A model generated the notes under the pieces. The model did no database searches and was not told where the DNA came from. It saw only the letters and a list, made by a program, of their open reading frames with translations. Source: Sphaerolaimus hirsutus (Eukaryota > Nematoda > Chromadorea > Monhysterida > Sphaerolaimidae). Taken from it: a stretch of DNA of 64,000 nt. The position numbers were made by a program, and so were the translations under genes. Position 1 is the first letter of the stretch. Every line of letters starts with the position of its first letter. Positions 5,260 through 58,479 of the stretch are shown here, piece by piece. The stretch covers positions 4,357,855-4,421,854 of the forward strand of contig OZ038455.1 in the NCBI GenBank assembly GCA_964036195.1, given 5' to 3'.

Positions 5260-7355
5260 GGGGGTGAACTTGAGTTTTTAGGGGCTGACTTTTCAATTCA
5301 GGGTTGAGTTGATGGGTGTTTATAAATTAGGGTTGAGTTGACAGAAGTTTAAAAATAAGGGGCTGTTGACACAACTTTACAAATTAGAGGCTGAGTTTAT
5401 GGGAGTTGAGTTGATGGGTGTTTGCCAAATTTGGGGCTGAATTTATGGGAGTTAACAATAACATTACCATAATCCTTCAGTGAGGCCCCCGGGGCTAAAA
5501 AATATAAATTGTGATATGATGCATTTGTGGGTTACTGATTACAATGATTTGAAATATGCACTCCATTCTGACAGTACATTACCATAACCCTGAAATTGAA
5601 TCCCTGGGCCAAAACTTTCAAATTGTGAAATGATGCATTGTGGGTTTCTAATTGCACTGATTTGATATATAATGCACTCCATTTTGACACTACATAACCC
5701 TGAAAACTACATAACCATAACCCTGAAAATGAACCTCTGGAACCAAAAACTTTCAATTTGTGAAATCATTCATTCTTGGGTTTCTGATTGCACTGATGAG
5801 TTGATGGGTGTTTGCCAAATTAGGGGCTGAGTTTATGGGAGTTAACAATAACATTACCATAATCCTTCAGTGAGGCCCCCAGGGCTTAAAAATATAAATT
5901 GTGATATGATGCATTTGTGGGTTACTGATTACAATGATTTGAAATATGCACTCCATTCTGACAGTACATTACCATAACCCTGAAATTGAATCCCTGGGGC
6001 CAACTTTCAAATTGTGAAATGATGCATTGTGGGTTTCTAATTGCACTGATTTGATATATAATGCACTCCATTTTGACACTACATAACCCTGAAAACTACA
6101 TGACCATAACCCTGAAAATGAACCTCTGGAACCAAAAACTTTCAATTTGTGAAATCATTCATTCTTGGGTTTCTGATTGCACTGATTTGATATATGCACT
6201 CCATTTTGACACTACATTACCATAACCCTAAAAATGAACCCATGGGGCCAAATACTTTCAATTTGAGAAATAATGCATTTTCGGGTTTCTGATAGCACTA
6301 ATTTAAAAATATGCACTTCATTTTGACACTACATTACCATAACCCTAAAAATGAACCCCCTGGGCCAAAAACTTTCAAATCATAAAATTATGGATTTGTG
6401 GGTTTCTGAGTGTAACGATTTCAAATATGCCCAGGGCTTCAAAAATTAGAAATTGTGAAATGATTCAATGCGGGTTTCTGATTACACTGATTTGAAATAT
6501 GCACTCCATTTTGACACTACATAACCCTGAAAACTACATAACCATAACCATGAAAATGAACCTCTGGAGTCAAAAACTTTCAATTTGTGAAATCATTCAT
6601 TATTGGGTTTCTGATTGCACTCATTTGAAATATGCATTTCATTTTGACACTACATTACCATAACCCTAAAAATGAACCCCCTGGGCTGAAAACTTTCAAA
6701 TCATAAAATGATGCATTTGTGGGTTTCTGATTGTAGCAATTTCAAATATGCACTCCATTTTGACACTAAATTACTAAAACCCTGAAATTGAACCCCTAGA
6801 CCCAAAAATTTCAAATTGTGAAATGATGCATTTTGCAGGTTTCTAATTGCACTGATTCGAAATGACTCAATTTCAACTCATCATTACTGTAAGCCTTAAA
6901 TTGAAAATCGAAAATAAATTAGAATTGTGAAATGATGCATTTCTGGCTTTTTGATTGCCTTGATTTGAAATATGCACTTCATTTTGACACTACATTTCCA
7001 TAACCCTGAAAATGAACCCCCAGGGCTAAAAATTTTCAAATCATAAAATGATGTGTTTGTGGGTTTCTGATTGTAGCGATTTCAAATATACACTCAAGTT
7101 TTACACCACATTACTAAAACCCTGATAATGAACCCCTGGGCCCAAAAACTTTCAATTTGTGAAATGATGCATTTGTGGGTTTTTTATTGCAGTGATTTGA
7201 GATGTGCACTCCATTTCTACTCTACATAACCATAACCTTTAAGTCTAACCCCTGGGGCTAAAAAATTGAAGATTGTGAATTGATGCATTTGTGGATTGAT
7301 GCTAGCAATTATTTCAAATATTCATTCTATTTTGACACTACATTACCATAAAGCT
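5260..7355. repeat. Satellite, about 115-bp monomer with 389-bp higher-order unit
   Basis: Monomers carry CATAACCCTGAAAATGAACC, AACTTTCAAATTGTGAAATG, ATGCATTTGTGGGTTTCTG and CACTCCATTTTGACACTACA in constant order, roughly 15 copies. GATGGGTGTTTGCCAAATT recurs at about 5,414 and 5,803 with near-identical following sequence, giving a higher-order period of about 389 bp. Both members of the pair carry the same TTCAGTGAGGCCCC segment. Copies decay toward 7 kb. Confidence 0.85.
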
Positions 7356-7495
7356 GAAAATGAGTTTACAGGAGTTTCCAAATTAGGGACTGAGTTTATG
7401 GGAGTTTCCAAATTAGGGGCTGAGTCTATGGGAGTTTCCAAATTAGGGGCTGAGTTTACAGGAGTTTCCAAACTAGGGGCTGTGTTTACAGGATT
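7356..7495. repeat. 30-bp minisatellite
   Basis: About 4.5 units of the form TGAGTTTATGGGAGTTTCC plus AAATTAGGGGC. The same words occur at the 5' edge of the satellite (5,330-5,440), so the array probably grew from satellite sequence. Confidence 0.85.
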
Positions 7496-7995
7496 TAGAG
7501 GGGGTCCCCATGGGGTGCCATTTTTGGGGGGTCTCCAGGGGGTGCCATTTTTTGGAGGCACATATGGGGGTGCCATTTCAAGGGGGTCCCCATGGGATGC
7601 CATTTTTTGGGTGGTCCCCAGTGGTACCGTTTTTTGTTGGTCCTTAGGGGGGTGCTATATTTTTTTGTGGGGGGTCCATAGGGGGTGCCATTTGGGGGGG
7701 GGGGTCCCCAGGGGGTGCCATTTTTTGAGAGTCCCCAGGGGGAGCCAACTTTGGGTGGGTCCCCAGGGGGTGCCATTTTTGTGGCGGTTCCTAGGGGGTG
7801 CCATGTTTGGGGGGTCCCCAGGGGGTGCCATTTTTGGGGGGTCCCTAGGGGTGCTATTTTTGGGGGGTCCCTAAGGGGTGCCATTTTTTGGTGGTCCTCA
7901 GGGGGTGCCATATTTGTGGGGCCCTAGGGGGTCCCATTTTTGGGCAGTTCCCAGGGGGTGCCACTTTTGGGGGGTTCCCTGGGTGATGCCATTTG
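7496..7995. repeat. G-rich minisatellite, about 28-30 bp unit
   Basis: Repeats of GGGGGTCCCCAGGGGGTGCC plus ATTTTTGG, about 17 units with point variants. The length being near a multiple of three keeps frames open on both strands, but these are not genes. Confidence 0.9.
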
Positions 7996-8052
7996 GAGGG
8001 GGGTCCCCACTGGGGTGTCAGTTTTTGCAAGCCTCTGAGTAGTGGGTACCTA

Positions 8053-9132: not shown

Positions 9133-12100
9133 ATGGCGAGTTGCCAACAATTGCTGACTGATTTGCTGTTGGAATCTGGCCAGGGAAATGGCCACGCTGC
9201 GGCTGGTGGCGCGGCTGCGGATGCGGCGCCCTGGATCGCACAAATACAGCAATTCACTGTGACCTACATCTTTCCAGCAGGTGCGTATTAAATGTGATAA
9301 ATCTACAGAAAGAAAGATCCAACAAGTTGGATACCAGAGTTGTTAAAATACCGGTATTTTTGGAAAGCGTAAGCGTAAGCGTAAATACACTTTCTCAATT
9401 TTGAGTATGGATACTGTAAGCGTAAGGTATTTTTAAAATACCTAGGAAAGCGTAAAATAAAGCGTAAGCGTAAATTTTTTTTTGAGAGAGTGCTCTTGGC
9501 ATTGAGCATCGTAAAATACTCTTGCTTTCACATTTAGATCAATGTATCACAGATTCTCTCCATTTTTGCTCAGTTAATTCTTTTCAAAACAAGATCTCGG
9601 TGACATTTTTCGGTCATTCATTTGGTAGTCTGCCCTCGTAGCAATTCATGGGCAGCGACACTTATATCATATTCTAACTCGGATTTCGTGCTGTCGACGT
9701 CAACAACATCGTCGTCGGAATCCATTTTCTGTCCCAAAATCACTAATCTAACGCCACGGTATTGCTCGACGATACAATATTGACCAGACATTCATATTGG
9801 TGCCACACACGCTGGACGTCGACTGTTTCGGTGTCAACTCGATTTTAGTCGAATTTAGGTCGCAGGACAATTTTCAAGTGCACGTGCGGCAAAGTCGAAG
9901 AGAAATTTATACGGCCATGTGCATTTGAACATGGGTTCTCAGCCCATAAACGCAAAATTTATGAAAAACTGTTGGCCCAGTTGTCAACTGGTCCAACAGT
10001 TTTTCATAAACTTTTAGTTTATTGGCTGCAAAATTATGTTCAAAAGCACATGACTATATAAATTCCTCTTAGACTTTGCCGCACGTTCACTAGAAAATCG
10101 TCCTGCGACCTAAATTGAACTAAAATCGAGTTGACACCAAAACAGTTGACATCCAGCGTGTGTGGCGCCTTTGCGACACAATTTATATATGTGCCGCTAT
10201 TTCCAGTGCAATACTGCGCACACGCAGTCTCTATTTTTTTTGTCTTTTTTCATTTTCTTTTTGTAGTTTTACACTTTTTCAAAACCGTAAAACTGGGTCA
10301 TGTGGAAAGCTTTTTTACGCTTTTAGTATCCGGGTAATTTGGCCAGGAAAGCGTAACAAAGCGTAAGGGTATTTTACGAAAGCGTAAGCGTAAGCGTAAG
10401 TATAAATACCCATTTACCCGGGTATTTCGGGTAAGCGTAAATACGCTTTCGCAACTCTGTTGGATACACCAACCAATACAATGTAGCTGTTGAAAAGACA
10501 CATTGTTTGAAATTCTAATAGCCAACCATTATTTACAACGAATGTATCCATGTAAGGATGAAAAATTGATGTAATAAAAAACTATGGATAAGTAAGCAAC
10601 AGTTGAAAATAGGCATTGTTTTTTAATGTAGTAGCATGCGGTAGCGTGCAGTGTGCATTGCAGTGGGTGCTGTACCTGCCCCTCGCAGCGCTGGTGGCGG
10701 GCTTCACGAGCCAGCTGGCCAACCTGCTGGTGCTGCGCGAGCGCAAGATCCGCAACATGACGTACACGATCTACCTGCGCGCGCTGTCGCTCATCTACCT
10801 GGCGGTGATCCCTTTGATGAGCGCCAGTCTGCTGCGGCGGTGCGGGCTCGTGCCGCGGGCGGTGCTCACCTCGGCCGCGGCGGCCTTCTTCTGCGCGCAC
10901 CTGGAGTCGTACGCGATCAACGTGCTCCTGTTCGCGGGCAACCTGGTCGTGGCGGCGATCACCGCCAAGGCGTACGTGGCCGTGGTGCGGCCGCTCACCC
11001 CGGAGCCGAGCAACGGGGCCATCGTGGGCACGCTCCTGCTGCTCGTCGCCGCCACCGCCGCCCTGCTCGCGCCCGTCACCATGATCACCCAGGTACTGCA
11101 TTCCTTGAATTACCCCCCCCCCCATCACCATGATCACCCAGGTACTGCATTCCTTGAATTGCCCCCCCCCCGCTGAACAACCAATGTCAGCCCTGCTCGC
11201 ACCCATCACCATGACCACGCAGGTGCTGTATTGCCTCGAATTACCCCCCTGAACAGCCCCTCTCTGCCCTGCTGCTTTTGAAAACTACTTTCAAATTTTT
11301 TGAAAACTATTTTTCAATTATTTGAATACATGCTTGTGAAAAATGTGAGTCCCGAAAAGTCATTAAAGGAAACCACTTAAAAATTTTAACTCTTTTTTCC
11401 ACACACAGGTGAAGGCATTTGGGGACAGTGAACAGGCAGCCACTCTGCTCAACAGCACGCTGCCACACAAAAAGCAGCTTCTGGAGGCCATGGCGCACTC
11501 CTACTGCACCGTTCCCTTGCCTAACAGTGTGTACATCGTGAAACCAATCCAGCTCATTTCAGCAGCTATTTTCGAGGTGTTCCTGTTGTTCTCCATATTG
11601 GGCTTGTACATGGCCATTTTCAAGTGCTTCAGGAAAAACCAGGTTAGAACAAGTCAAACTATGGTTTGAAGAAAACAGACATTGAACATGAAGACAAATT
11701 ATGAGGTTAACACTGAACTCCCATTGCAGATGTCCAATGAAGCGAGTGCTGGGAAGCAGCAGATGCGAAGGAACGTGAAACAGGTACTTTGTGACATGAC
11801 TTTTCTGGCATTGGCACATTGCCAGACCATTCACAGCGAAAAATTGGTGTACATTTGATAAAAAACAAAGCGATACACTTCCACATGCTTTCACATGCTT
11901 CCATTAGCAACACAAAATTTTCAGTGAATTGTCTCCCACAGTCCCACATGCTTCACCTAGCTTCACACATTTCCTTTCTAGCACCATATTTAAAAGTGAA
12001 GTCTTTTCATGCAAATTTCCATGATGGATGTGGAAGTATCATGTTTTGTCAAGTGTCTGGAAGTGTCACCATGACTTGCTCAGAACCCAAAATCTGTTCA

Positions 12101-20970: not shown

Positions 20971-23900
20971 ATGGCGAGCTGCCAACAATTGCTGGCTGAT
21001 TTGATGGCGGAATCTGGCCAGGGAAATGGCCACGCTGCGGCTGGTGGCGCGGCTGTGGATGCGGCGCCCTGGATCTCACAAATACAGCAATTCACTGTGA
21101 CCTACATCTTTCCAGCAGGTACGAAATACGTTTTCTGTATGTGAGTACTTTCAAAAAGTATATGTAAAAGCTAGTTACAGGTACTTTTTAGAGGAAACAT
21201 AAATCTTTTTACTCAGTACTTGAGTATACTCATTTATCGAGTAAATGTAAATACATTTTTACAGCTATGGTTCCAACCAGAGTTGTACACATACTGGTAT
21301 TTTTGGAAAACGTAAACGTAAATACCTTTCCCAAATCAAAAGTATAAATACTAAAACGTAAGTTTTTTTTAAAATACCGGGGAAAACGTAAAATAAAACG
21401 TAAACGTAAAAATTATATTTAGTGCTTCCGCTATCAGAGAATACAAAAAAACAACAGATTTTTTACAACATTATGGATGTTCATATGATCTCCATCGACA
21501 TTTTCTGCTTACCTGTATTTTTTATATATTTAGAATGATGGGATCGGGATATTGAATTGGGATTGGAGTTCACATTTTGTGTCGCTGTCAACTAGTGGGT
21601 GTCAACTATAAGGTGCCAATTCCGTAACAGGAGAACTAAGAAAATTATGAGTGAGAAGTAATGGCAAGTTGAATGGCAAGTAAAAATTGAAAGAAAGATA
21701 AATTTGTAAGTGAAATGGCAAGTTAAAAGACAAATGGCTAGTCATGAGAAAACACTAAAAATGTCTTTGACTTTTTATTTGCGTTTCAGTTCTCCCTTAC
21801 AAAAATACTTTCATACAACTTTTTACTTTTGACTTACAAATTTGGTGTTTGAGTTATCCAATTGCGGAATTAGAACTCCTCAACATAAGAACATGTTGTA
21901 TTCATCATAATACACTATATTTGTCAAAAAAATACGGTTCCGTGTAGCATATTTTTACGTTTTCTCTGGTACCCGGGTAATTCTGCCAGGAAAATGTAAC
22001 AAAGCGTAACGGTATTTTTGGAAAGCGTAAGTAAAAATACCCGTATAACCGGGTATTTCGGGTAAACGTAAATACGTTTTCGCAACTCTGGTTCCAACAG
22101 CCCAGAGTCATTAATTTACTTTTACTCAAAAAGTGTGCATACTTGAGTACAACGTAAATACACATACACATACTTAAAAAATGTATCTGTTCTTGGTTGT
22201 ACACTTACTTTTTGAGAGTACTCAAGTACAGTAGAGTAATTCTTGTGAGTACAGACAGAGTATTTATGCCATTCATGATGCCTGTTTATCATAAAGAATA
22301 CTTTTAAATCAAAAGAAAACACCTTTTTGTTGTCCAGGGTAAACATTCATAATGCCTTTTCCAGAAAGAAAAGACAAGATTATTCTCTTTTATTATTTCC
22401 TGAGAAAAACACTTGCATCTACACTTTCTGGATAAAAAAGTATTTTACTTTCATTTACTGACAATTAAAAGTAAACAAAATCACTTTATGCTTTCTGTAC
22501 TTGGGGGGTGAGTAAAAACAAAGTGGTTTATGCATACACAAACTTTGAAAAAAGTTCATTACATTTAACAACTCTGCAATAGCCAACCTTCATCAGACTG
22601 AATGCTGAATACAAACAATGCACCATCAAACAAGTCATGTAAAAAGTGATAAAAAATATGTTTTTTTTTATCTAGTGGCATATGGTAGGATGCAGTGTAA
22701 CCTCAGTCAGTGCTGTACACTCGACCCCTCGCAGCGCTGGTGGCGGGCTTCACGAGCCAGCTGGCCAACCTGCTGGTGCTGCGCGAGCGCAAGATCCGCA
22801 ACATGACGTACACGATCTACCTGCGCGCGCTGTCGCTCATCTACCTAGCGGTGATCCCTTTGATGAGCGCCAGTCTGCTGCGGCGGTGCGGGCTCGTGCC
22901 GCGGGCGGTGCTCACCTCGGCCGCGGCGGCCTTCTTCTGCGCGCACCTGGAGTCGTACGCGATCAACGTGCTCCTGTTCGCGGGCAACCTGGTCGTGGCG
23001 GCGATCACCGCCAAGGCGTACGTGGCCGTGGTGCGGCCGCTCACCCCGGAGCCGAGCAACGGGGCCATCGTGGGCACGCTCCTGCTGCTCGTCGCCGCCA
23101 CCGCCGCCCTGCTCGCGCCCGTCACCATGATCACCCAGGTACTGCATTGCCTCAAATTACCCCCCATCACCATGATCACCCAGGTACTGCATTGCCTCGA
23201 ATTACCCCCATTACCATGATCACGCAGGTGCCGTATTACCTCAAATTACAACCCCCCCCCCTCCAGAACAACCCCTGTCTGCCCTGCTTGCGCCCATCAC
23301 CATGATCACCCAGGTATTTACTGCATTCCTTGAATTACCCCCCCCCCCCTGAACAACCCCTGTCTGCCCTGCTCGCGCCCATCACCATGATCATGCAGGT
23401 GCCGTATTACCTCAAATTACAACCCCCCCCCCCTGAACAACCCCTGTCTGCCCTGCTCGCACCCATCACCATGATCACCCAGGTACTGCATTCCTTGAAT
23501 TACCCCCCCCCCTGAACAACCCCTGTCTGCCCTGCTCGCGCCCATCACCATGATCATTCAGGTGCCGTATTACCTCAAATTACAACCCCCCCTCCAGAAC
23601 AACCCCTGTCTGCCCTGCTCGCGCCCATCACCATGATCACCCAGGTACTGCATTCCTTGAATTACCCCCCCTGAACAACCCCTGTCTGCCCTGCTCGCAC
23701 CCATCACCATGATCACCCAGGTACTGCATTCCTTGAATTACCCCCCCCCCCCCTGAACAACCCCTGTCTGCCCTGCTCGCGCCCATCACCATGATCACGC
23801 AGGTGCCGTATTACCTCAAATTACAACCCCCCCCCCTCCAGAACAACCCCTGTCTGCCCTGCTCGCGCCCATCACCATGATCACCCAGGTACTGCATTCC

Positions 23901-26900
23901 TTGAATTACCCCCCCTGAACAACCCCTGTCTGCCCTGCTCGCACCCATCACCATGATCACGCAGGTGCCGTATTACCTCAAATTACAACCCCCCCCCTCC
24001 AGAACAACCCCTGTCTGCCCTGCTCGCGCCCATCACCATGATCACCCAGGTACTGCATTCCTTGAATTACCCCCCCCCCCTGAACAACCCCTGTCTGCCC
24101 TGCTCGCGCCCATCACCATGATCACGCAGGTGCCGTATTACCTCAAATTACAACCCCCCCCCTCCAGAACAACCCCTGTCTGCCCTGCTCGCGCCCATCA
24201 CCATGATCACCCAGGTACTGCATTCCTTGAATTACCCCCCCTGAACAACCCCTGTCTGCCCTGCTCGCACCCATCACCATGATCACCCAGGTACTGCATT
24301 CCTTGAATTACCCCCCCCCCCCCTGAACAACCCCTGTCTGCCCTGCTCGCGCCCATCACCATGATCACGCAGGTGCCGTATTACCTCAAATTACAACCCC
24401 CCCCCCCTGAACAACCCCTGTCTGCCCTGCTCGCGCCCATCACCATGATCACGCAGGTACCGTATTGCCTCGAATTACCCCCCGGGGACAGCCCCTCTCT
24501 GCCCTGTTGTATTCCCTCGAATTACCCCCCCCCCTGCTCGCGCCCATCACCATGATCACGCAGGCACTGTATTGCCCCGAATTACCCCCCCCCCCCCCTG
24601 AACAGCCCCTCTCTGCCCTGCTGCTTTTGAAAACTACCTTAAACTTTTTTGAAAATATGATTGTGAAAAATGTGAAGTTTGGAAAATTATTAAAGGAAAA
24701 ATGCTTCAAACTTGGAACACTTTTTCCACACACAGGTGAAGGCATTTGGGGACAGTGAACAGGCAGCCAGCCTGCTCAACAGCACGCTGCCACACAAAAA
24801 GCAGCTTTTGGAGGCCATGGCGCACTCCTACTGCACCGTTCCCTTGCCGAACAGTGTGTACATCGCAAAAACGATCCAGCTCATTTCAGCGGCCATTTTC
24901 GAGGTGTTCCTGTTGTTCTCCATATTGGGCTTGTACATCGGCATTTTCAAGTGCTTCAGGAAAAACCAGGTGAGACCAATGAAGATTATAGTTGGGAGGA
25001 AATGCACATTTAAAATGAGAACCCTGTAAAATGTAAAATGCCATGCAAATTGTCAAAAGTCATGTGAAGTGTCAAATGTCAAGTACTTTATTTTCCAGAT
25101 CACTTTACATTACATTTGACAGTTTGCATGATATTTGTTATTATATAATGCACCTTACATGGCCTGGCGACTGCCCCAATGATCAGCTTAACACTGAATT
25201 CTCATTGCAGATGTCCACTGGAGGCAGTGCAGACTTGCAGCAGATGCGAAAGAACACGACAAAGGTGGGTTTTGTGCTGAGTTTGAATTGACATTAGGAC
25301 CCAGGCACTAGCTGGTGGGTGGCATGCCCGGCAAATGCAAATGAATCCAAAAATGATTAATTTTAATAGAAATTTTGTTCAAAATTGCATTTCCATGGCA
25401 ATTGGCCAAATTGAGCTATTCTGAGTTCTTTTTACAAAAGACAATGGTGCAATGATATGGAAAACGTTGCGATCAGCCACTTTTTTCAATTTTTTCAATT
25501 GAGTCCATCAAATTTGTATGGAAATTGATCATAAATATTGATTCATGTGCACTTGCGGGCGTGTTAGGAGGAGTGTCAAATGTGCCTGCCTTCAGAATTA
25601 AATATGGAGCCAGGACATCTGTAACATTGTGGTAATGGCACACTAACTCAAAGTGTTTTAGTACTGAAGTGTTTTTTTCCAAAATTGTCTCCTTTTTCAA
25701 ATTTTCAAATTTTTTTGAAAAAAATTAATAGTTTTTGCAAAATTTCAGGGTTAGCTTTCAAAATTTTGTTTGTTCCTATATTTTACCTGGGATAGTGTTA
25801 GAAATTTTGATGTGCAGCAGCAGGAAAAGGGTAATGTCACTCCCAGAACCTGATAAATGTCATGCAAAGTGTCAAAGTCATGTGAAATGCCATGTAATAT
25901 GCCACATATGTCATGCACAGGGTTGGTTTTAGTAAAATTATTTTTACTAAAATTGTATTTTATTTTTATTAAAATTGTATTTTATTTTTATTTTATTCTT
26001 CAATTTTCCATTTTATTTTTATTTTTTTCTTCAATTTTTCATTTTATTTTTTATTTTGGTTCGTGACCATGGTTGATTTAAGTAAAATTCTTTTTACTAA
26101 AATTGTATTTTATTTTTATTAAAATTGTATTTTATTTTTATTTTATTCTTCAATTTTACATTTTATTTTTATTTTATTCTTTAATTTTCTATTTTATTTT
26201 TATTTTATTTTTATTTTTTTCTGAGATTTTGCCAACCCTGGTCATGCAGCGTTTCTTAAGTCATGTAAAATGCCCTGGAAAATGGCAAACAAAGTTTTGG
26301 CATTTTGCAGGCTGGGGATGACATCGGTACACACACATACAAAGACACACGCACACAAACCCACACACAGGTGGCTAAGACCCACAAGGCTGTGGCGATC
26401 TGCTTGGGCTCCGTGGCTGGATACCTGCTGTCGAATTCGGCCAGCGCTCTCAAACAGGTCAGCAAAATACACTACTGAGTCACAAAATCACTTTACATCA
26501 ATTTGCTAGACAATGCCAATTTTTGATGATAAATAGGAGTAACAATCACGAGTGTTCAAATCATTGACTGTTTTTCTTACAATGTACTTTTGATCTTAAA
26601 AATCATGTTAAACACAGCTTATGTGTTTGTGTTTCATGTAGCTCACAGAACGAAACATTGGCTTTATTATTGACACCATTGAACTCTGAGTGAACAGATG
26701 TCACCAAAATGTTAGGCTGTTTTGTGTGCACTAACACACAGTTTTCATAGTAAAAAAACCTGAGTCGTTCATTATTGCATTGGAAAAAACAATATGTGGG
26801 TGTTTTACTTTGAGGGCTGTTTTTATCAGGCTGTAATGGGCAATAAGTGATAATTCAAAAAATGTGATAACCCTTGGCAAACCTGGCACCACAAGAGTTG

Positions 26901-32202: not shown

Positions 32203-33726
32203 CCGTATTTACTCGAAATACCTCCCGAGTAGTGATGGAAAAAGCGCCAGACTTTTGGCGCCAAGCACCAAAAGCGCCATGGCGCTTTTCTGAACCCCAG
32301 CGCCAAGCGCCAATGGCGCCAGAGGGCAATGGCGCCAAGCGCCAATAGCGCCAGCGCCAAAACTTATTGCTGCAATTCGTTTGCAAAAAAATGAATTCAT
32401 AACTGTGATGTACCACTGATGTCATAGTAGTCGATTTTCCTTTTGCCATTAAAGTTCAATGAACAACTATAATGTTTCATACATTGTTCAAATCTCCCTG
32501 GGACATATTTTTCAGCCAAACATTGTGACTGGGGAGCTTTCAATGGGGAGTACTTTGTTCCTCACACAGCTAAAAGGCGCAGTTATTCAAGGGACATTTA
32601 TTTCATTCTCATTTGGCTAACAGTGGGATTATTCTAGGGAGAGAACTTTTTTGAGATTTTATAGCATTTTTCCTTTGCTATACAGAGCAATTTATCGTTA
32701 AAATGTATTTACATGTACTCAAAAAATACATACATCCAGAGCAAATATTTTATTTGCTAATTGCCCTGTTTGCCCATGTTTGTAATAACGGAGAAATTAT
32801 TATTTCGTTCACCTTCTTTAGGGGGGAACTATTCGAGAAAGGAAATTATTTGAGGTGATTAGAAGACATAAAATGATAAATGTAAGATAAAATACCGTTA
32901 AAATAAAATTCTTAAAATACCAGTACATTATTACAGTCTAAATCCAAATATTACCTCTAGAGTAAAAAGTAAACACATTTTAACACCTCTGCTTTTATTC
33001 TGTGTAGTCCCCAAATTTGTCCCCAAATATTACCTAATCAATGTTAATTAATGGTAATGTCCCATAACACCCTCATATTTACCAATATTTATTCAGATGC
33101 TCTAAAAAGTTATCAACTGGATTGTCGATTTCACTCACTCATAACAATTTTTAAAATCACGGTTGGCGCTTTTTTGGCGCCATTTAAAATGCCGGCGCCT
33201 GGCGCCAATAGCGCCACCAGCAAATGGCGCCAAGCGCCAAAAGCGCCATGGCGCTTTCTCAGATCCCGGCGCCAAGCGCCAATGGCGCCAGAGCGTTTTA
33301 GCGCCAAGCGCCAAAAGCGCCATGGCGCTTTTTGCTTTGGCGCTAGCGCCAGGCGCCAGCGCCATGGCGCTTTTCCATCACTACTCCCGAGGGTGATTGT
33401 TTCAGAGTGACAATTTTGAGGGGGAGTGTTAAATGAGGGGGGGGGGGGGATTTTGAAGCTTTCTGAACTCTCAGTACTAATTTGTTGTTTGTAACATATG
33501 CAGACATAGAAAAATGCAACAAAAAGCACCGCGTATAAGAGTCTATAGACTTTATAAGTATAAACCCTGTTATAACGTAACACACATTTGTTTTTAACGT
33601 GTGTTCTGCATTGCCCGGATCACAAACCGCTCTTTTGTCATTTACATCATCTTTTCACTAAATTTGGGGGAGGGGGTTTTTCGATGTAGGAGGGTATTTC
33701 GAGGAGGGTTTTTGGAGAAAATACGG
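32203..33726. mobile_element. TA-flanked CCGTATTT element interrupted by a hAT
   Basis: TA-CCGTATTTACTCGAAATACC to ...GGAGAAAATACGG-TA. Core words (reverse orientation, 33,470-33,660) match subfamily 1. The GCGCC hAT sits in its left CTCCCGAG motif. Confidence 0.75.
32230..33383. mobile_element. hAT-like MITE, TAGTGATGG TIR, GCGCC-rich
   Basis: TAGTGATGGAAAAAGCGCC to GGCGCTTTTCCATCACTA with the perfect TSD CTCCCGAG (32,222-32,229 and 33,384-33,391). GCGCCAAGCGCC arrays at both ends flank about 790 bp of AT-rich sequence. Confidence 0.9.
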
Positions 33727-34143
33727 TATTCTGATGTTCTAGCACTTCTTAATCTGACGCTTCTGTGATACTTGATAAAATTGACACATTTCTGTTTGTG
33801 TAAACTTGAATCATTGTATTTATACATTGCCATAACTTTGACTGTCGTGCTGTGCTTTCCGCAACAATGAAAAAAAAACAGAAATTGAACACAGAAACTC
33901 AATTTTCACACAGAGACTCACAAAAAAATCAGTTTTACACAGAAACTAAACATTTTTTGAAAAACTCAAATGAGTTTTTTATTGGAGAACACAGAAACAA
34001 AGAAAATACATGAATTTTTTTGAGTTTTTTCATCAAAATTGAAGGCACATGATTTCAGTTCGACTAAACAACATGAGGTTTACCTGCATACATAAAATGT
34101 GCATGTATAATATATACATAAGCTATACTCTGTATCACACATA
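33727..34143. repeat. Spacer with CAACGATGG-hAT fragment
   Basis: At about 33,868-34,040 AACAATGAAAAAAAAACAG, AACACAGAAACTC and GAAACTAAACATTTTTTG form one end of the 3,469-type element; the other end is missing. Nothing else recognised. Confidence 0.55.
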
Positions 34144-34585
34144 CCGTATTTCCTCGAAATACCCCCCCCCCCTCGAAATACCCCCCCCCCCTCGTTTGAC
34201 CCCCCCCCCCTCTCGGGACCACTATGAAACAATCACCCCCCCCTCGAAATACCCCCCCCCCAATTGAGTGTAAAGGGAACGTACATGACAATAACTGTAG
34301 TTTGTGTTCTGTGTACTGCAGAACACACGTTAAAACATCGTCGGTGTCACGTTAGAACAGTGTACATACCATCTACATTCTAGTATTAGTCTACAGAACC
34401 TTATAAATGGCGGTTTTTGTTGCTTTTTTCGACGTCTGCGTACGTTTCAGACGACAATTTCGTACTTGGTTTTCAAAAATTTTCTTGTGAAATAATAACC
34501 CCCCCCCCCCTCGAAATACCCCCCCCCCCCTCTCGGGACCACTATGAAACAATCACCCCCCGGGGGGTATTTCGAGGAAATACGG
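34144..34585. mobile_element. TA-flanked CCGTATTT element, complete subfamily 1 copy
   Basis: TA-CCGTATTTCCTCGAAATACC to GGTATTTCGAGGAAATACGG-TA. 442 bp. C9-C13 runs, core GAACGTACATGACAATAAC ... CGTACTTGGTTTTC. The best reference copy in the window. Confidence 0.85.
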
Positions 34586-34849
34586 TAGTATGGTAACCTA
34601 CCAAAGCCCATCTGAATAATGAACCAAAATTATACAGTTTTTCATCATAATATTCCATTTTTACTATGGAAAATTAATTACAAAATTCATCACAAGATTT
34701 TTTTCATAAAATTATGGTAGGATTCTGCACATACGTCACAGTCTGCCGAGTATACCAATGAGTTTGAAAGATGCGGGATTTCTGTTCGCGTCACCAAAAG
34801 CAACTAATTAGGCAAATGGTCGCTAATGGCGGCCACATAGTAGTTGAAA

Positions 34850-35010
34850 CGGGGGTGCACTGATACGCACATCTGCCCGTTACGCACTAATGTCATTGCA
34901 TAACTTTTTTCACTTTACTCATATCTGAAAAACACTTGAAAAAGTGTCAAGTGAAAAAACGGGCAAATGTGCGTATCGGGCAGATGTGCGTATCAGGCCT
35001 GCCCCGTTGA
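34850..35010. repeat. GTGCGTATCGGGC hairpin repeat
   Basis: GATACGCACATCTGCCCG at the left and CGGGCAGATGTGCGTATC at the right, with a second CGGGCAAATGTGCG copy. Related in style to the GTGCGAAACGGGC blocks at 14.7 and 15.2 kb. Confidence 0.65.
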
Positions 35011-35148
35011 AACATGTGTTGACTTAATTGCATTCTGCGGTAAGCGAACAGAAATCCTGTGTCTTCAAACTTGTTGTTCTGAAATGCAAGGTAACTTGGA
35101 CATGTGCCAGGTTCACATAACTAATGTTTTGGAGGATATTGTCGGGGC

Positions 35149-36074
35149 TAGTGATGGAAAAAGCGCCATGGCGCTTTTCTTACCCCCAGCGCCAAGCGCC
35201 AATGGCGCCAGAGCAAAATAGCGCCAAGCGCCAAAAGCGCCATGGCGCTTTTCTGAACCTCAGCGCCAAGCGCCAATGGCGCCAGAGGGTAATGGCGCCA
35301 AGCGCCAATAGCGCCAGCGCCAAAATTTTTTTTCTGTAATTAGTTTGTAGAATAATGGATTCATAACTGTGACGCACCGGCACGGTTGATGAATCAATTA
35401 GTCAAGTAGTCGATTTAACTTCTCCCATTGAAGTACAATCAACCACTACAATGTTTACATTGTTAAAATCCCCTCTAATTACTCTCATGGGGGTTTATTT
35501 TTATTTTATTCAAAGGGGGGGGGGTATTTCGAGGAAATACGGTATATGCATAATACATATACCAACTACTTTATATGTATCTGCGATGGTAATTGGCAGC
35601 AAATAATACATCATGTACATTGCATACATGATGTATTTACGTTATTAAAAACGGAAGGTATTTCGAGGAGGGTCGATTCAAGGGAGGGATAATTCGAGGA
35701 AATACGGTACTTTGTCTCCAAATATTACCTAATCAATCTTTAATAAATATTAGTATCCACTGACACCCTACCTACCTATATTTATCAATATTTATTCAGT
35801 TGTTCTCAAAATTGATCAACTGGAATGTGAATTTTCACTGTATTATAACCGTTTTTATAATCATGGTTGGCGCTTTTTTGGCGCCATTAAAAATGCCAGC
35901 GCCAGGCGCCAATAGCGCCGCCAGAAAATGGCGCCAAGCGCCAAAAGCGCCATGGCGCTTTCTCAGATCCCGGCGCCAAGCGCCAAGGGCGCCAGAGCGT
36001 TTTAGCGCCAAGCGCCAAAAGCGCCATGGCGCTTTTTGCTTTGGCGCCAGCGCCATGGCGCTTTTCCATCACTA
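35149..36074. mobile_element. hAT-like MITE, TAGTGATGG TIR, GCGCC-rich
   Basis: TAGTGATGGAAAAAGCGCC to GGCGCTTTTCCATCACTA with the perfect TSD GTCGGGGC (35,141-35,148 and 36,075-36,082). Carries CCGTATTT ends (TATTTCGAGGAAATACGG at about 35,525 and 35,690) in its middle. Confidence 0.9.
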
Positions 36075-45073: not shown

Positions 45074-45417
45074 CCGTATTATCGCGAAATACCCCCAGGG
45101 GGTTTATTATTTAACCAGCAAATTTTCAGGAGTGGGTTAATTCGAGGGGGGTATTCGAGGGAGAGTCTATCATTTCGCAAGAAATTTTGTGAAATTCCAC
45201 ATACTCATATTTACATAGATGTATAGGTACATGTGTTTATAGACGTATATATAGGTAGGTACGCATAAGCCCTGCCCCAACGTCACTCAGTCATTGGTTT
45301 CAACGTGTGTTCTGCATAATACAAATCACAAACTGCCGGTATTTGTCTTTACACTCAATTTGGGTGGGGGTATTTCGAGGGGGGTAATTCAAGGGGGGTT
45401 AATTCGAGGTAATACGG
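45074..45417. mobile_element. TA-flanked CCGTATT element
   Basis: TA-CCGTATTATCGCGAAATACC to TTAATTCGAGGTAATACGG-TA; core GTGTGTTCTGCATAATAC and TTTGGGTGGGGGTATTTCG. Confidence 0.8.
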
Positions 45418-54400: not shown

Positions 54401-57400
54401 ACCGACGCACATAAAAGTCACTTGAAATCACCCCTTCAAACTGCATCACCCACACCCCCTCAAACCCCCCCACAAACGTCAAAAAACGAACCTCAAAAAT
54501 ACCCTCCAGGACCCTTATAACCACTAGCGCGCCGCTACCGAAATGAGCCACGGGGGGCGTCATAATCGTGAGTAAAGCGGTGCCGAAAATGCCGATTAAA
54601 AAGGTGGGGTGGCCCCCGTATTTTCTGGCCAGCCAGCCGCCGGGAATTTGCGTCAAAATGTAGCCGTAGAAAAATGCGCTAAGGATTATTCCTTTTGTTA
54701 CCGAGTTCCAGTGTTGAAATTCGCCCGGCATCTGAGGGGGGGGGGGATTTCTTGTTAAAAGTGCACTATTTGAAGAAGTTTTTATTTTTTAATTTATTAT
54801 TATTAATTATATTTTTTAATTGTTTTTGGAGCAATCACCCTGAAAAAATGTTGTCGCCAAGGAAAAAGGGCGCCAATGACGCCATGGCTGAAAAAATAGT
54901 GCCGCAGAAAAAAGAGCGCCAAGCGCTAATGGCGCCATGGCGCGACGCGTTTTGGAGCTCTCAAATGGCGCCATTCCATCACTAAATGGGATATCTGAGA
55001 AATGCTTGCATTTGCATTGCGTAAAATACGTCGAGTTGGGTACCTACAGACGTACTGAGGTGAGATTAGCTAATCAGAATGTCGAAAATGATTGCAAACG
55101 CCATGGAAATTTTATAATGTGGATTGGTAATGCTCCATTGAAAGAAATACTGTATTTTTCATTTATTGATGTATTTGCACACCTAACTGAATAGGTCGAA
55201 CATTTGATCAGTATTTATGTGCTTGAGTAGTGATGGAAGCTTTTCCAAACCCCAGCGCCAAGCGCCAATGGCGCCAGAGCAAAATGGCGCCAAGCGCCAG
55301 AAGCGCCATGGCGCTTTTTGTCTTGGCGCTAGCGCCAGGCATTTTGTTCCTGGCGCCACAGAAAAATAGCGCCATGGCTCTTTTCATGGGTGCGGCGCCA
55401 AGCGCCAATGGTGCCACAGCAAAATAGCGCCAAGCGCCAAAAGCGCCTTTTTGCTTTGGCGCTAGCGCCATGGCGCTTTTCCATCACTATTCTTGAGCAC
55501 AAATAACAAGACAAAACATCTCAAATCTCATCCAAACTCACATATCTCACACTTCCATCAGGCATGACCCTATTCGTGCCATTAGTCATTTGCAAAATCG
55601 CAATGCTCAAATTGGCCCTCATCGCGTAAACGTTGCAAAAGCCGAGAAAGCCCATAAACGCCATGTAATATCGTCTTTGGGTCAAATGTATGGCGCCGGT
55701 CGCGTGCAGTAGGGATGTCCAAATTTTCTGAGATCGCGTTTTTGGTTCTCCATTGTCGGTATGGCCTGGAAAAAATTATATGTTTTATGGGGGATTTGTG
55801 TTTGGATTTGTGTGAAAAATGAACTTTTTGGTGTAAATACATTGTGTTACTTTGAAATGAGCCCCATCTCGAAATACCCCCCCCCCCTCGAAATACCCCC
55901 CCTCCCATGGGGTATTTCGAGGAGATACAGTACCGTATTTCCTCGAAATACCCCCCCTCAAAATGGGCACTATGAATTTGTGGTCCGGGAACGTTCAAAA
56001 CAGACGTTCAAAACACTTACTGTGTTACGTTAGAACATCGTTTATACCATCTACATCCTTATATGAGGCTGTAAAAACTTATAAATGGTGGTTATTATTG
56101 CATTTTTCACGGTTTTCTCTCAAAATTTTCACTCTGAAAAAAAACCCGGGGGTTAATTCGAGGAAATACGGTATATATAAATGCATTTACGCAGTACTCA
56201 AGTGTAGGTATGTATTGTTCAATTAAATGTAAATACATTTTAACAACTGTTAAACGTAAAATAGGTAAACATGTGCACCGAAAAAACGTTACTGTGAAGC
56301 GATGATTTTGCACAATATCATTTGCATACGTAATTCACTCACTTTTTTGCTTTCTTTTCTTTCTCCGAATAGAGGATCTTTTCCGATCGTCATTGCAGTC
56401 CGATTCAGATGAGTCAAGATTCAACTTTGTGTATTCATACCGATTATCAATAGATTTTTCGTTTTTAGACATTTTTTATGAAAATTTTGTTAATATTTTT
56501 TTCGCCAAGAGCTATTTTTCATAATACAATATTTGCATCGCAAAATACACGTGTTACTGCTAAGTATTGCATTTATGTACATGCATTGTATTATGTTAAA
56601 ACAGCGTGATATAAAATGACGATACAGGGTGACTCAGGGAAATATATTAAATTTTATCCACGAAAGGAGGTTCCCATATATTTTGGTTCCCCCATGATAA
56701 AAGCTCGCTCAAATTACAATAGTTTTGTTTGTATTTTGTAAACCACCCCTTATGTAATCCACCAATGGTGCAGTGATATTGATGTTTCGAAATCGCAGTC
56801 CTATTCTAGTTAAATATTGATTACTTCCAATACATAAAATACCCAAAGGTCAAACTTTATTTGTACATCTGTTCCCAAAGGGGAGTTTTCCATATTCTTT
56901 AGAAAAGATTGCCCAACTTTTTGAAAAATTAGACCAGTACTTATTTGTGGTTTGTGACGTATGCAGGTGTAGAAAAATGCAACAATAACCGTTTTGAGGG
57001 GGGGGGGGGGTGTTATTTTGTGATAAATACCAATTTTTGGAATGCTGACCATAGGTGCACAGCACAGGTGTAGGTGAAATCCATTCCTTTATACTTTTAC
57101 CATGATGTGCATTCTCCACATCTTACATTTGCACATGCAAATCCAGGTGCCACGCACTTTCTGCAGAAAAAAACCCATCAAAAAGGTTTACTCGACGGAC
57201 CGCATGCTATGCATTTTTCTGAAGGAAACACTCCATCATAACGTCATCATTAATAAAATAAAAATAATGCCAGCAAAAATGAAGAAAAACACATGACGGG
57301 AGAAACATTCCTCGTTTGTACACCAGAACGGAGTTACCGTATTTCCTCGAAATACCCCCCCCCCCCCCCGAAATACCCCCCTCAAAATGGGCACTATGAA

Positions 57401-58479
57401 CTAATAACCCCCCCCCCCCCGCTTGAAATACCCCCTCCCCCAAGTGAGTGTAAAAAGAACGTCAATGACAAAAGCTGTGTTTTATGACCTGGGCAATGCA
57501 TAACACACGTTACAAACATTGATTGTGTTACGTTAGAACATGGTTTATACCATCTACATACTTATATAAGGCTGTAGACTGCTATACATGGTGGTTTTTG
57601 TTGCATTTTTCTACGTCTGTGTATGTTTTTAGTACTGGGAGTTCAAAAAATTTCTTGTGAAATAATAACCCCCTCGAATTACCCCCCCCCCTCGAAATAC
57701 CCCCTCAAATCTCACTCTGAAAAAATAAACCCCCTTTGGGGTATTTCAAGGAAATACAGTATGTTCAGTAGCCTTGATATTGAGAATGGGCTTCTGTCTG
57801 CAATTCTGTGATACAGATTTTTTTGCCCATTTACATATTCAGTTTGATGGGTTTGGCCTGTGCACACTACTTTACTTAAACTGAGAATTTGGATAACTCA
57901 TTTTTAGCTTCTGAGCACATCTGAGTTTACCGGAATGAGCTGTTTGCCAACTACAGTTGACAGAGGTTCAAAATAACACTGGTAAACTTAGATGCGCTCA
58001 GAAGCCAAAAAAATCAGTTTACCAAATTCTTAGTTTACCATTAGTAAACTAGTGTGTGCAGCGCCTTTGATCGGCATGCATAAAAAGTATACTCCCCACT
58101 GCAGCACTGAGCAGATTAACACCACCGAACCCCACCCAAATTGCGGCTAAGATGTTTACGTTGGGGCCCTGGTTGACCAAATTCTCTTATGCAAGGTGCG
58201 AAACCACGAAATTCAAAAATTCAAAAATGTTTGCGGAATATAACTCAGTGGAATCGTTTGTATGCGACTCCGCCTTTTTTAAATATTTTTCTTTTTGTGA
58301 AAGTGCATACGTAAGTATCCAGCACGCGTGTTATCGACCAAGACATAAGTAATTTTGGGCGCATACTTTGCGGTCCGCCGAGTTTAAGTAAAATGCTCAC
58401 CTTGAGGCGTCGTCCCGTAATCCGCCCCATGTTCCGCATTTTCCGGTAGAATTTCTTTGCTTTCCGAACGTTTCTTCAT
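48425..58479 (-). CDS. SLC17/sialin-like anion transporter (MFS), 10 exons, 527 aa
   Basis: Exons, 5' to 3' on the minus strand: 58479-58401, 55765-55542, 54731-54492, 53813-53639, 53009-52876, 52565-52416, 50136-50004, 49528-49383, 49063-48971, 48634-48425. All junctions GT-AG and in phase; 528 codons with stop, in the usual range for the family. Diagnostic stretches: GFLGFCNVYAMRANLSIAIL (TM1, with the family arginine R76), N88-G-T loop sequon, IPGGWLARKYGG (132-141, MFS motif after TM2), RVLEGIFEGVTYPAMHAIW (TM4), FYVFGLLGVLWCFVW, AHFAENWGFYTMLTYLPKYM, DIAPQYASILMGLSNSFATI, and an acidic tail (SEYDDQEVVV). SLC17 members move organic anions or phosphate (sialic acid, glutamate, urate) across lysosomal, vesicular or plasma membranes; substrate cannot be read here. 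SKEILPE near the N-terminus and SLL (44-46) are loose dileucine-like signals. A second first exon is at 56,343-56,472. Confidence 0.95.
49700..49815. mobile_element. CCGTA-group remnant in intron 7 of the transporter
   Basis: AATCCTCGACTACAACCCC and GGGTTTTATTCAAGGATTTG. Ends decayed; a short copy of the CTCGAATAAGTCC type. Confidence 0.4.
50369..51220. mobile_element. CAGAGTTGC hAT remnant split by a palindromic element
   Basis: CAGAGTTGCAAAAACGTATA at the left; GTTACGTTTTCCTGGCCG and CGGGTGTACCAGAG at the right are internal words of the long-type family. The distal right end is not recognisable. Confidence 0.5.
50441..51105. mobile_element. 665-bp near-perfect palindrome, TA-flanked, intron 6 of the transporter
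   Basis: TA-CACAGGTCCCGGCAAAAAAT to TTTTTTGCCGGGTCCCGG ... GACCTGTG-TA. Arms mirror each other over their whole length to a GC centre (GGGGACCGGGCCCCGG near 50,767). Words such as GCATGCCAAATTTTAGCTCC and GCCGATGCATATTCTTTGG appear once in each arm. No ORF. Confidence 0.88.
51291..52292. repeat. Cluster of CCGTA-group elements in intron 6 of the transporter
   Basis: At least three copies: 51,291-51,401 (ATTTCCTCGATATACACC ... GAGGAAATACGG-TA), 51,475-51,800 (TGTATTTGCTTGAATAGTCC; TA-CCGTATATCCTTGAATAAGAC) with its right end at about 52,111 (GGATATACGG-TA), and 52,180-52,290 (GGGGGTTATTTGAGG ... GCAAATACGG-TA). Confidence 0.6.
53350..53515. repeat. CCGTAAATCCTCGAATAAGTCC tandem cluster, intron 4
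   Basis: TA-CCGTAAATCCTCGAATAAG followed by about five CTCGAATAAGTCCCCCTCCG monomers, on one strand only; right terminus lost. Confidence 0.65.
54106..54317. mobile_element. hAT-like MITE, TAGGGTGTCAA TIR, intron 3 of the transporter
   Basis: TAGGGTGTCAAATTTCCG to ...TTTTTCGACACCCTA with flanks GTCATAAC / GTCACGAC (6/8). Confidence 0.8.
54860..54984. mobile_element. GCGCC hAT fragment, intron 2 of the transporter
   Basis: GGGCGCCAATGACGCCATGG and AATGGCGCCATTCCATCACTA: right end of the TAGTGATGG family; left end truncated. Confidence 0.55.
55228..55489. mobile_element. hAT-like MITE, TAGTGATGG TIR, compact copy, intron 2
   Basis: TAGTGATGGAAGCTTTTCC to GGCGCTTTTCCATCACTA with flanks TGCTTGAG / TTCTTGAG (7/8). 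262 bp, almost entirely GCGCC arrays; it lies only 52 bases from transporter exon 2. Confidence 0.85.
55933..56171. mobile_element. TA-flanked CCGTATTT element, intron 1 of the transporter
   Basis: TA-CCGTATTTCCTCGAAATACC to TTAATTCGAGGAAATACGG-TA; 239 bp. A second set of CTCGAAATACCCC monomers lies just before it (55,866-55,925). Confidence 0.8.
56343..56472 (-). CDS. Candidate alternative first exon of the SLC17-like transporter
   Basis: Minus strand, ATG at 56472, 43 codons plus one base, then consensus donor GTGAGT. The phase (1) is exactly that of the regular first exon, so it can join exon 2 (GCCATACC) to give ...RKQK-S-HTDNG. The peptide is hydrophilic: acidic-serine stretch LDSSESDCNDD, basic stretch RRKKRKQK, and YEYTKL, which fits the Yxx-phi type of endosomal/lysosomal sorting motif (YTKL). 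The regular exon has no such motif. It is also possible that this is a chance open frame; donor and phase fit argue against it. Confidence 0.5.
57337..57760. mobile_element. TA-flanked CCGTATTT element, subfamily 1, intron 1
   Basis: TA-CCGTATTTCCTCGAAATACC to TATTTCAAGGAAATACAG-TA; core GAACGTCAATGACAAAAGC ... AGTACTGGGAGTTC. Confidence 0.8.
58300..58385. repeat. CTCGGCGGAC-family terminal fragment
   Basis: GTTATCGACCAAGACATAAG, TTGGGCGCATACTTTGCGG and TCCGCCGAG match 805-864. Only one end is present, close to the transporter first exon. Confidence 0.6.

Follow-up and report, generated by a model that had tools for sequence, protein, structure and literature searches.

Exon-2 splice donors repeated in tandem in a receptor-like gene of Sphaerolaimus hirsutus, a probable splice-junction minisatellite

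Two adjacent receptor-like genes, termed A and B and both on the + strand, are found in a 64,000-nucleotide (nt) stretch of the nematode Sphaerolaimus hirsutus genome (assembly GCA_964036195.1, contig OZ038455.1, positions 4,357,855 to 4,421,854 of the forward strand). The whole of this stretch is referred to as the window, and it lies inside a 29.3-Mb record. In gene B the end of exon 2, together with the donor that follows it, is repeated in tandem in intron 2. There are 19 exon-2 ends including the true one, i.e., 18 with CAG-GT (one real and 17 extra; the hyphen marks the splice border) and one with CAG-GC. Gene A has three copies including the real donor, which leaves two extra. The features discussed are listed below in window coordinates.

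10689 to 11092, + strand: exon 2 of gene A.
11093 to 11273, + strand: three-copy array of gene A, with exon ends at 11092, 11141 and 11222.
22735 to 23138, + strand: exon 2 of gene B; the intron position is that of five paralogs.
23106 to 23138, + strand: 33-nt exon tail, which forms the exon part of the full repeat unit, consensus GCCCTGCTCGCRCCCATCACCATGATCACSCAG.
23139 to 23140, + strand: predicted native exon-2 donor, CAG-GTACTG; CAG-GT is aligned in paralogs L011, L012, L017, L019 and L030.
23139 to 24735, + strand: intron 2 of gene B, 1597 nt.
23139 to 24622, + strand: tandem array of 18 extra exon-tail copies (17 with GT; the copy ending at 24563 has GC), central units 76-86 bp.
23184 to 23185, + strand: donor 2, which would add 15 residues in frame, VLHCLKLPPITMITQ.
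23217 to 23219, + strand: in-frame TGA, read by any product of donors 3-19.
24615 to 24622, + strand: second occurrence of the 8-nt word GCCCTGCT, in the intron tail, where full units are joined.
24736 to 24969, + strand: exon 3 of gene B, acceptor AG-GTGAAG.

The reading frame of gene B is open through exons 2-6, and by inspection the hydrophobic stretches of exons 2-6 resemble those of a seven-helix receptor. However, exons 2-6 of gene A reach 27.4 bits with the Pfam family 7tm_1, where the gathering score is 30.5 bits, and exons 2-3 of gene B reach 21.4 bits, also under the cut-off. Exons 2-6 of gene B returned no 7tm_1 row at E<=1, and the sole row was DUF7087, under its own cut-off. The apelin receptor is a weak match (about query positions 67-145, E 0.087-0.18), and from this alignment the end of exon 2 falls near what we take to be the end of the fourth transmembrane segment (TM4). 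By sequence the two genes are receptor-like with no firmer family assignment, the score for a rhodopsin-like G protein-coupled receptor not having been reached.

The exon ends of gene B are at positions 23138, 23183, 23227, 23313, 23398, 23482, 23561, 23644, 23720 and 23802 (copies 1-10) and at 23888, 23964, 24049, 24129, 24214, 24290, 24372, 24456 and 24563 (copies 11-19). The spacing from copy to copy is 45 and 44 nt, then 76-86 nt, and finally 107 nt. Thus the period of about 80 bp given by the original prediction holds for the central units and fails at both ends of the array. The extent it gave, 23107 to 24600, is in the right place, but the repeated part is slightly wider, from 23106 to 24622. 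Its numbers of 18 CAG-GT donors and one CAG-GC are correct, although these were said to follow the real exon and in fact include its donor; the count of three for gene A likewise stands with the real donor as one of the three. In a full unit, 33 nt of exon tail are joined to 43-53 intron nt, and the C-run measures 7-13 nt in copies 3-17. The tandem units therefore hold an exon end, a donor and an intron start, the make-up of a splice-junction variable number of tandem repeats (VNTR) of the type known from human CBS.

A 20-nt pattern of exon tail and donor, allowing up to 2 mismatches, has 22 matches in the window, 19 in gene B and three in gene A, and no matches in 100 dinucleotide shuffles. 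This bears out the tandem array of exon-2 donors at the place where it was originally predicted. The wider searches covered the 348-Mb genome (762 contigs), and their counts are lower bounds. BLAST with a 79-nt unit found at least 22 places, every one in genes A and B. A 34-nt pattern (up to 2 mismatches) gave at least 19 matches, 17 in gene B and two in gene A, with none for the reversed control; it misses copies A2, B2 and B3, which follow short units and do not have its left part. By both searches, with the lower-bound counts noted, no copies of the array were found outside genes A and B. A transposon origin of the whole intron half was searched for with a 70-nt query from gene A, very common words being skipped, and the five matches are only in genes A and B.

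An assembly artefact was considered and is judged unlikely, because the 1.5-kb array lies within the 29.3-Mb record, there is no N in positions 21500-25600, and the unit variants and C-run lengths are irregular. The C-runs may on paper fold as i-motif or G-quadruplex structures: a text pattern of four runs of at least three C with loops of up to 7 nt occurs at 11 places, a raw count made without a control.

Two main unit types are found in the array, alpha with CCCAG followed by GTACTGCATTCCTTGAATTAC and beta with CGCAG followed by GTGCCGTATTACCTCAAATTACAA. From copy 3 to copy 17 their order is beta, alpha, beta, alpha, beta, alpha, alpha, beta, alpha, beta, alpha, beta, alpha, alpha, beta. 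Both subtypes are thus as predicted, but their alternation is irregular. Once C-runs are collapsed, copies 6, 9, 13 and 16 of the alpha type are identical; copies 8, 11 and 15 are identical to one another and one edit from these; and the three beta-type copies 10, 12 and 14 are identical. Copies 3, 4, 5, 7 and 17 are 2-7 edits from their own type, and copies 1, 2, 18 and 19 are further off. With 10 of the 15 central copies (3-17) identical or one edit apart within type, the sequence indicates that the expansion is recent, and because the central copies are so nearly identical it is plausible that the length of the array varies between individuals. The C-run lengths of copies 8-9-10 (7-13-10) and of copies 15-16-17 (7-13-11) suggest that a block of three units was duplicated. 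Block-wise expansion, as first proposed, gains support from these lengths that falls short of proof, copies 10 and 17 differing by 3 edits.

Conservation of the donor half of the unit relative to the intron half was not significant. Among 13 unit types, variable columns number 5 of 20 in the exon half and 9 of 22 in the intron half (p = 0.34); with 6 unit types the figures are 2 of 20 and 8 of 22 (p = 0.07). The 13 types were picked by eye with identical central copies merged, and the 4-nt insertion of copy B4 was omitted from the columns.

The arrangement of the units points to how they may have arisen. The longest word that the end of the exon has in common with the intron beyond the array is, in both genes, the 8-nt GCCCTGCT, found once per exon tail and once per intron tail (23106 and 24615 in gene B; 11060 and 11266 in gene A). 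In each full unit the sequence left of this word is intron and that to its right is exon, a layout that therefore fits tandem duplication between the two words. In addition, a C-rich motif, CCTYGAAWTACCCC, has 64 matches in the window at up to 1 mismatch, where 0.03 are expected. Outside the two introns lie 48 of the 64, on both strands, and there are 21 neighbouring pairs within 80 bp; examples across the window are at 34152-34184, 45367-45409, 55867-55954 and 57672-57703. The motif begins at intron base 11 in gene A and at base 12 in gene B (with one mismatch in B), and it is present in the intron half of all three gene A copies and 12 of the 19 gene B copies. A dispersed, tandem-prone motif thus lies just behind this donor and may have driven the expansion.

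Searches with the exon 2 protein gave at least 27 matches in the genome. Two are genes A and B and five others, L011, L012, L017, L019 and L030, reach the exon end; all five have CAG-GT at the same aligned place. In the 1200-1500 nt after the exon, none of the five has CCTYGAAWTACCCC or a copy of the exon tail. Since these paralogs share the intron position without motif or copies, intron 2 is, on this comparison, older than the array, and the array is local to genes A and B. Intron gain by AGGT duplication is for this reason ruled out: the unit spans an existing exon/intron border, and the intron is shared with the five paralogs. A further exon 2 paralog, L014 (C15:6333797-6334096), has an in-frame TAA within the match and is possibly a pseudogene.

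Intron 2 of gene A is 316 nt long, with its last base at 11408. The last copies of the two arrays, A3 and B19, resemble each other (4 edits), and each array opens with a short unit. From this we infer that the arrays began before A and B split, or that conversion spread their first steps between the genes. Conversion has probably also acted on exon 2 itself. Between A and B only 1 of 402 codon nt of this exon differs (one synonymous change in 116 sites; GC 0.70), whereas pooling exons 3-6 gives 13.5 synonymous differences over about 127 sites, or about 11% (p = 0.0016, with 13 against 114 entered for exons 3-6). Exons 3 and 4 account for most of the contrast. In exons 5 and 6 only 2 of 23 and 2 of 42 synonymous sites differ, and these exons sit in A-B blocks of 94.6 and 97% identity, so that other parts of the genes are also close. 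Near-identity of A and B starts about 10 nt upstream of exon 2, and the preceding intron is clearly diverged. A recent A-B conversion tract probably covers exon 2 and ends at the array. All 20 extra copies have CCAT where both exons have CCGT, so the exon sequence as it now stands was not their source.

The effect on splicing depends first on how the extra donors compare with the native one. Duplex energies with U1 lie between -7.0 and -7.9 kcal/mol for the 18 GT donors of gene B and the three donors of gene A; within gene B the native donor has -7.4 and the 17 extra ones with GT have -7.0 to -7.5, and the value for the GC copy is -4.8. The range for eight other donors of the two genes is -7.4 to -11.4 kcal/mol. 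By these figures the decoy GT donors roughly equal the native donor, itself not a strong one, although the energies of beta donors count pairs beyond +6 across a loop and beta donors may be weaker than figured. Buffering, competition and diversification of splicing, the roles first proposed for the array, stay conjectural; competition between donors is possible, since the extra GT donors about match the native one in U1 complementarity.

Such competition could lower expression. Decoys of similar strength would divert transcripts to products ending at a stop, and copy number would tune receptor B, with 18 extra copies, relative to receptor A, with two. The TGA at 23217 lies before donors 3-19, as the original prediction had it, and all of their products would read this stop. 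A precedent is human CBS, where more repeats go with less CBS activity (PMC5188458). However, the donor half of the units is not significantly conserved, the later donors are made after donor 1 in transcription, and the beta donors may be the weaker ones for the reason given. A length-tuned reduction of receptor B is on balance unlikely.

Donor 2 is a separate case. The 15-residue addition that had been predicted for it is confirmed, its 45 nt encoding VLHCLKLPPITMITQ, and if this donor were used as an alternative it would diversify the protein near the border of TM4 and loop 2. The added segment is in frame and free of stops, and donor 2 is the same as the native donor over 12 nt. A match in frame has, however, a one-in-three chance, donor 2 of gene A is out of frame (+49 nt), and five paralogs have no such donor. 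Diversification of the receptor as the role of donor 2 is thus most improbable.

The copies should also be considered as acceptors. Intronic AG directly joined to GT is present in 17 of the 18 extra copies of gene B and in both of gene A, and donor 1 joined to the AG of a GT copy would rebuild CAG-GT. The array could in this manner neutralise itself, each copy acting as a 3' splice site and regenerating a donor, with the array removed stepwise by recursive splicing and the same mRNA as the outcome. Every one of 22 sites, including the two true exon ends, is CAG-G, with a pyrimidine fraction of 0.60-0.70 in the preceding 20 nt, which is inside the range of 0.50-0.75 seen at ten acceptors that homology places in genes A and B. 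Introns built of repeats are on record, with 24-nt tandem repeats in fission yeast (PMC3629103, PMC4974935). But the tracts are C-rich and poor in T, and a YTRAY branch-site pattern at -63 to -16 is found at none of the 22 sites, compared with 3 of the 10 acceptors. Stepwise removal is very unlikely on this evidence. A broader proposal joins these ideas: 18 nearly interchangeable GT donors, also serving as acceptors, would be removed stepwise or act as decoys in proportion to copy number, and a length that varies in the population would set the amount of correct receptor-B mRNA. This too is quite unlikely, judged from sequence.

It is probable, instead, that the array is a young splice-junction minisatellite that has captured a donor and is mostly neutral. 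The segment between the two GCCCTGCT words would have been duplicated in tandem; gene A would have stayed at three copies, and gene B would have reached 19 by unequal exchange or by slippage of blocks. The native donor, which is transcribed first and is needed for the protein frame, would make most of the functional mRNA. Donor 2 may yield a minor form with 15 more residues, and donors 3-19, if used, would lead to the stop and probably to decay. The array is most likely passive. If it costs any correctly spliced mRNA, the loss would be small and would depend on length, much as has been reported for the CBS VNTR. The surroundings agree with a minisatellite: Tandem Repeats Finder (TRF) gives 119 rows in the window, some of them overlapping, and other tandem arrays are near.

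Four points weigh against this interpretation. The shared 8-mer alone is not significant, since 294 of 2000 single-base shuffles yield one, and only its place at the join counts. Seven beta copies of gene B have no CCTYGAAWTACCCC at up to 1 mismatch, and because 7 of 19 copies are without it the motif may not be the driver. GT is kept in 17 of the 18 extra copies of gene B, a retention explained by recent homogenisation. Lastly, the extra GT donors cannot clearly be called weaker than the native one, so that misuse of them, and selection on such misuse, may be real.

Three further repeats of the window were recorded. A 27-bp unit, GGGGGTCCCC..., is present in 19 copies at 7500-8027 (TRF), and a long diverged array with a unit of roughly 116-132 bp is at 5461-7363. 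Palindromic units like GCGCCAAGCGCCAAT are repeated at 32256-36061 and 55239-55492, and similar sequence is found in the intron of paralog L019.

Gene B with 18 extra copies, gene A with two and the five paralogs read with none form a natural series. It is useful for asking how the spliceosome makes its choice when many donors are alike, and at what point expression begins to suffer once a splice site has been taken up into a repeat. The sequence suggests how such a repeat starts, from a dispersed tandem-prone motif beside a donor and an 8-nt shared word. Should the array be only a nearly neutral minisatellite, the likelier case, it adds one more instance of what is known from the human CBS VNTR. 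Extra CBS donors are reportedly used in RNA, a result attributed to Lievers et al. in 2001.

The nearest cases of donor arrays in the literature, in a search that reached few subscription papers, are the CBS VNTR and a class of boundary repeats. The CBS VNTR, c.1444_1467+7(16_21), is a 31-bp repeat at the exon 13/intron 13 border, and its name denotes 24 exon and 7 intron nt in 16-21 copies (PMC2630376). With more repeats, CBS activity is lower and homocysteine higher (PMC5188458), and a rise of homocysteine with the CBS VNTR is also listed in PMC1395315. As in gene B, the junction lies inside each unit, and the 16-21 copies compare with 19. The unit of 31 bp with 7 intron nt differs from the one of about 80 bp with 43-53 intron nt, and CBS alleles vary between people with activity falling as copies increase, whereas the gene B array is known from one assembly. 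By this analogy the gene B array is of the same kind as the CBS VNTR, with a longer unit.

A class of internal tandem repeats has been described at the exon-intron boundaries of human genes that were recently duplicated (PMC2812944). These repeats resemble the present array as variable border repeats in duplicated genes, and differ in that transcripts there support the changed introns. In models of intron gain through tandem AGGT duplication (the Rogers model; potato RdRp, PMC4974935; fission yeast, PMC3629103) the duplicated segment holds AG-GT, as it does here, but in gene B the intron predates the array and none was gained. The CBS 844ins68 variant is likewise a tandemly duplicated splice junction from which normal mRNA is still made (PMC2630376); it differs as a single 68-bp duplication of the intron 7/exon 8 junction. 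For the VNTRs of TERT intron 6 and MIR137, splicing goes with repeat number (PMC3948165, PMC6692358). However, the TERT repeats are more than 1 kb from the junctions, and the MIR137 donors are in pre-miRNA sequence rather than in every repeat unit.

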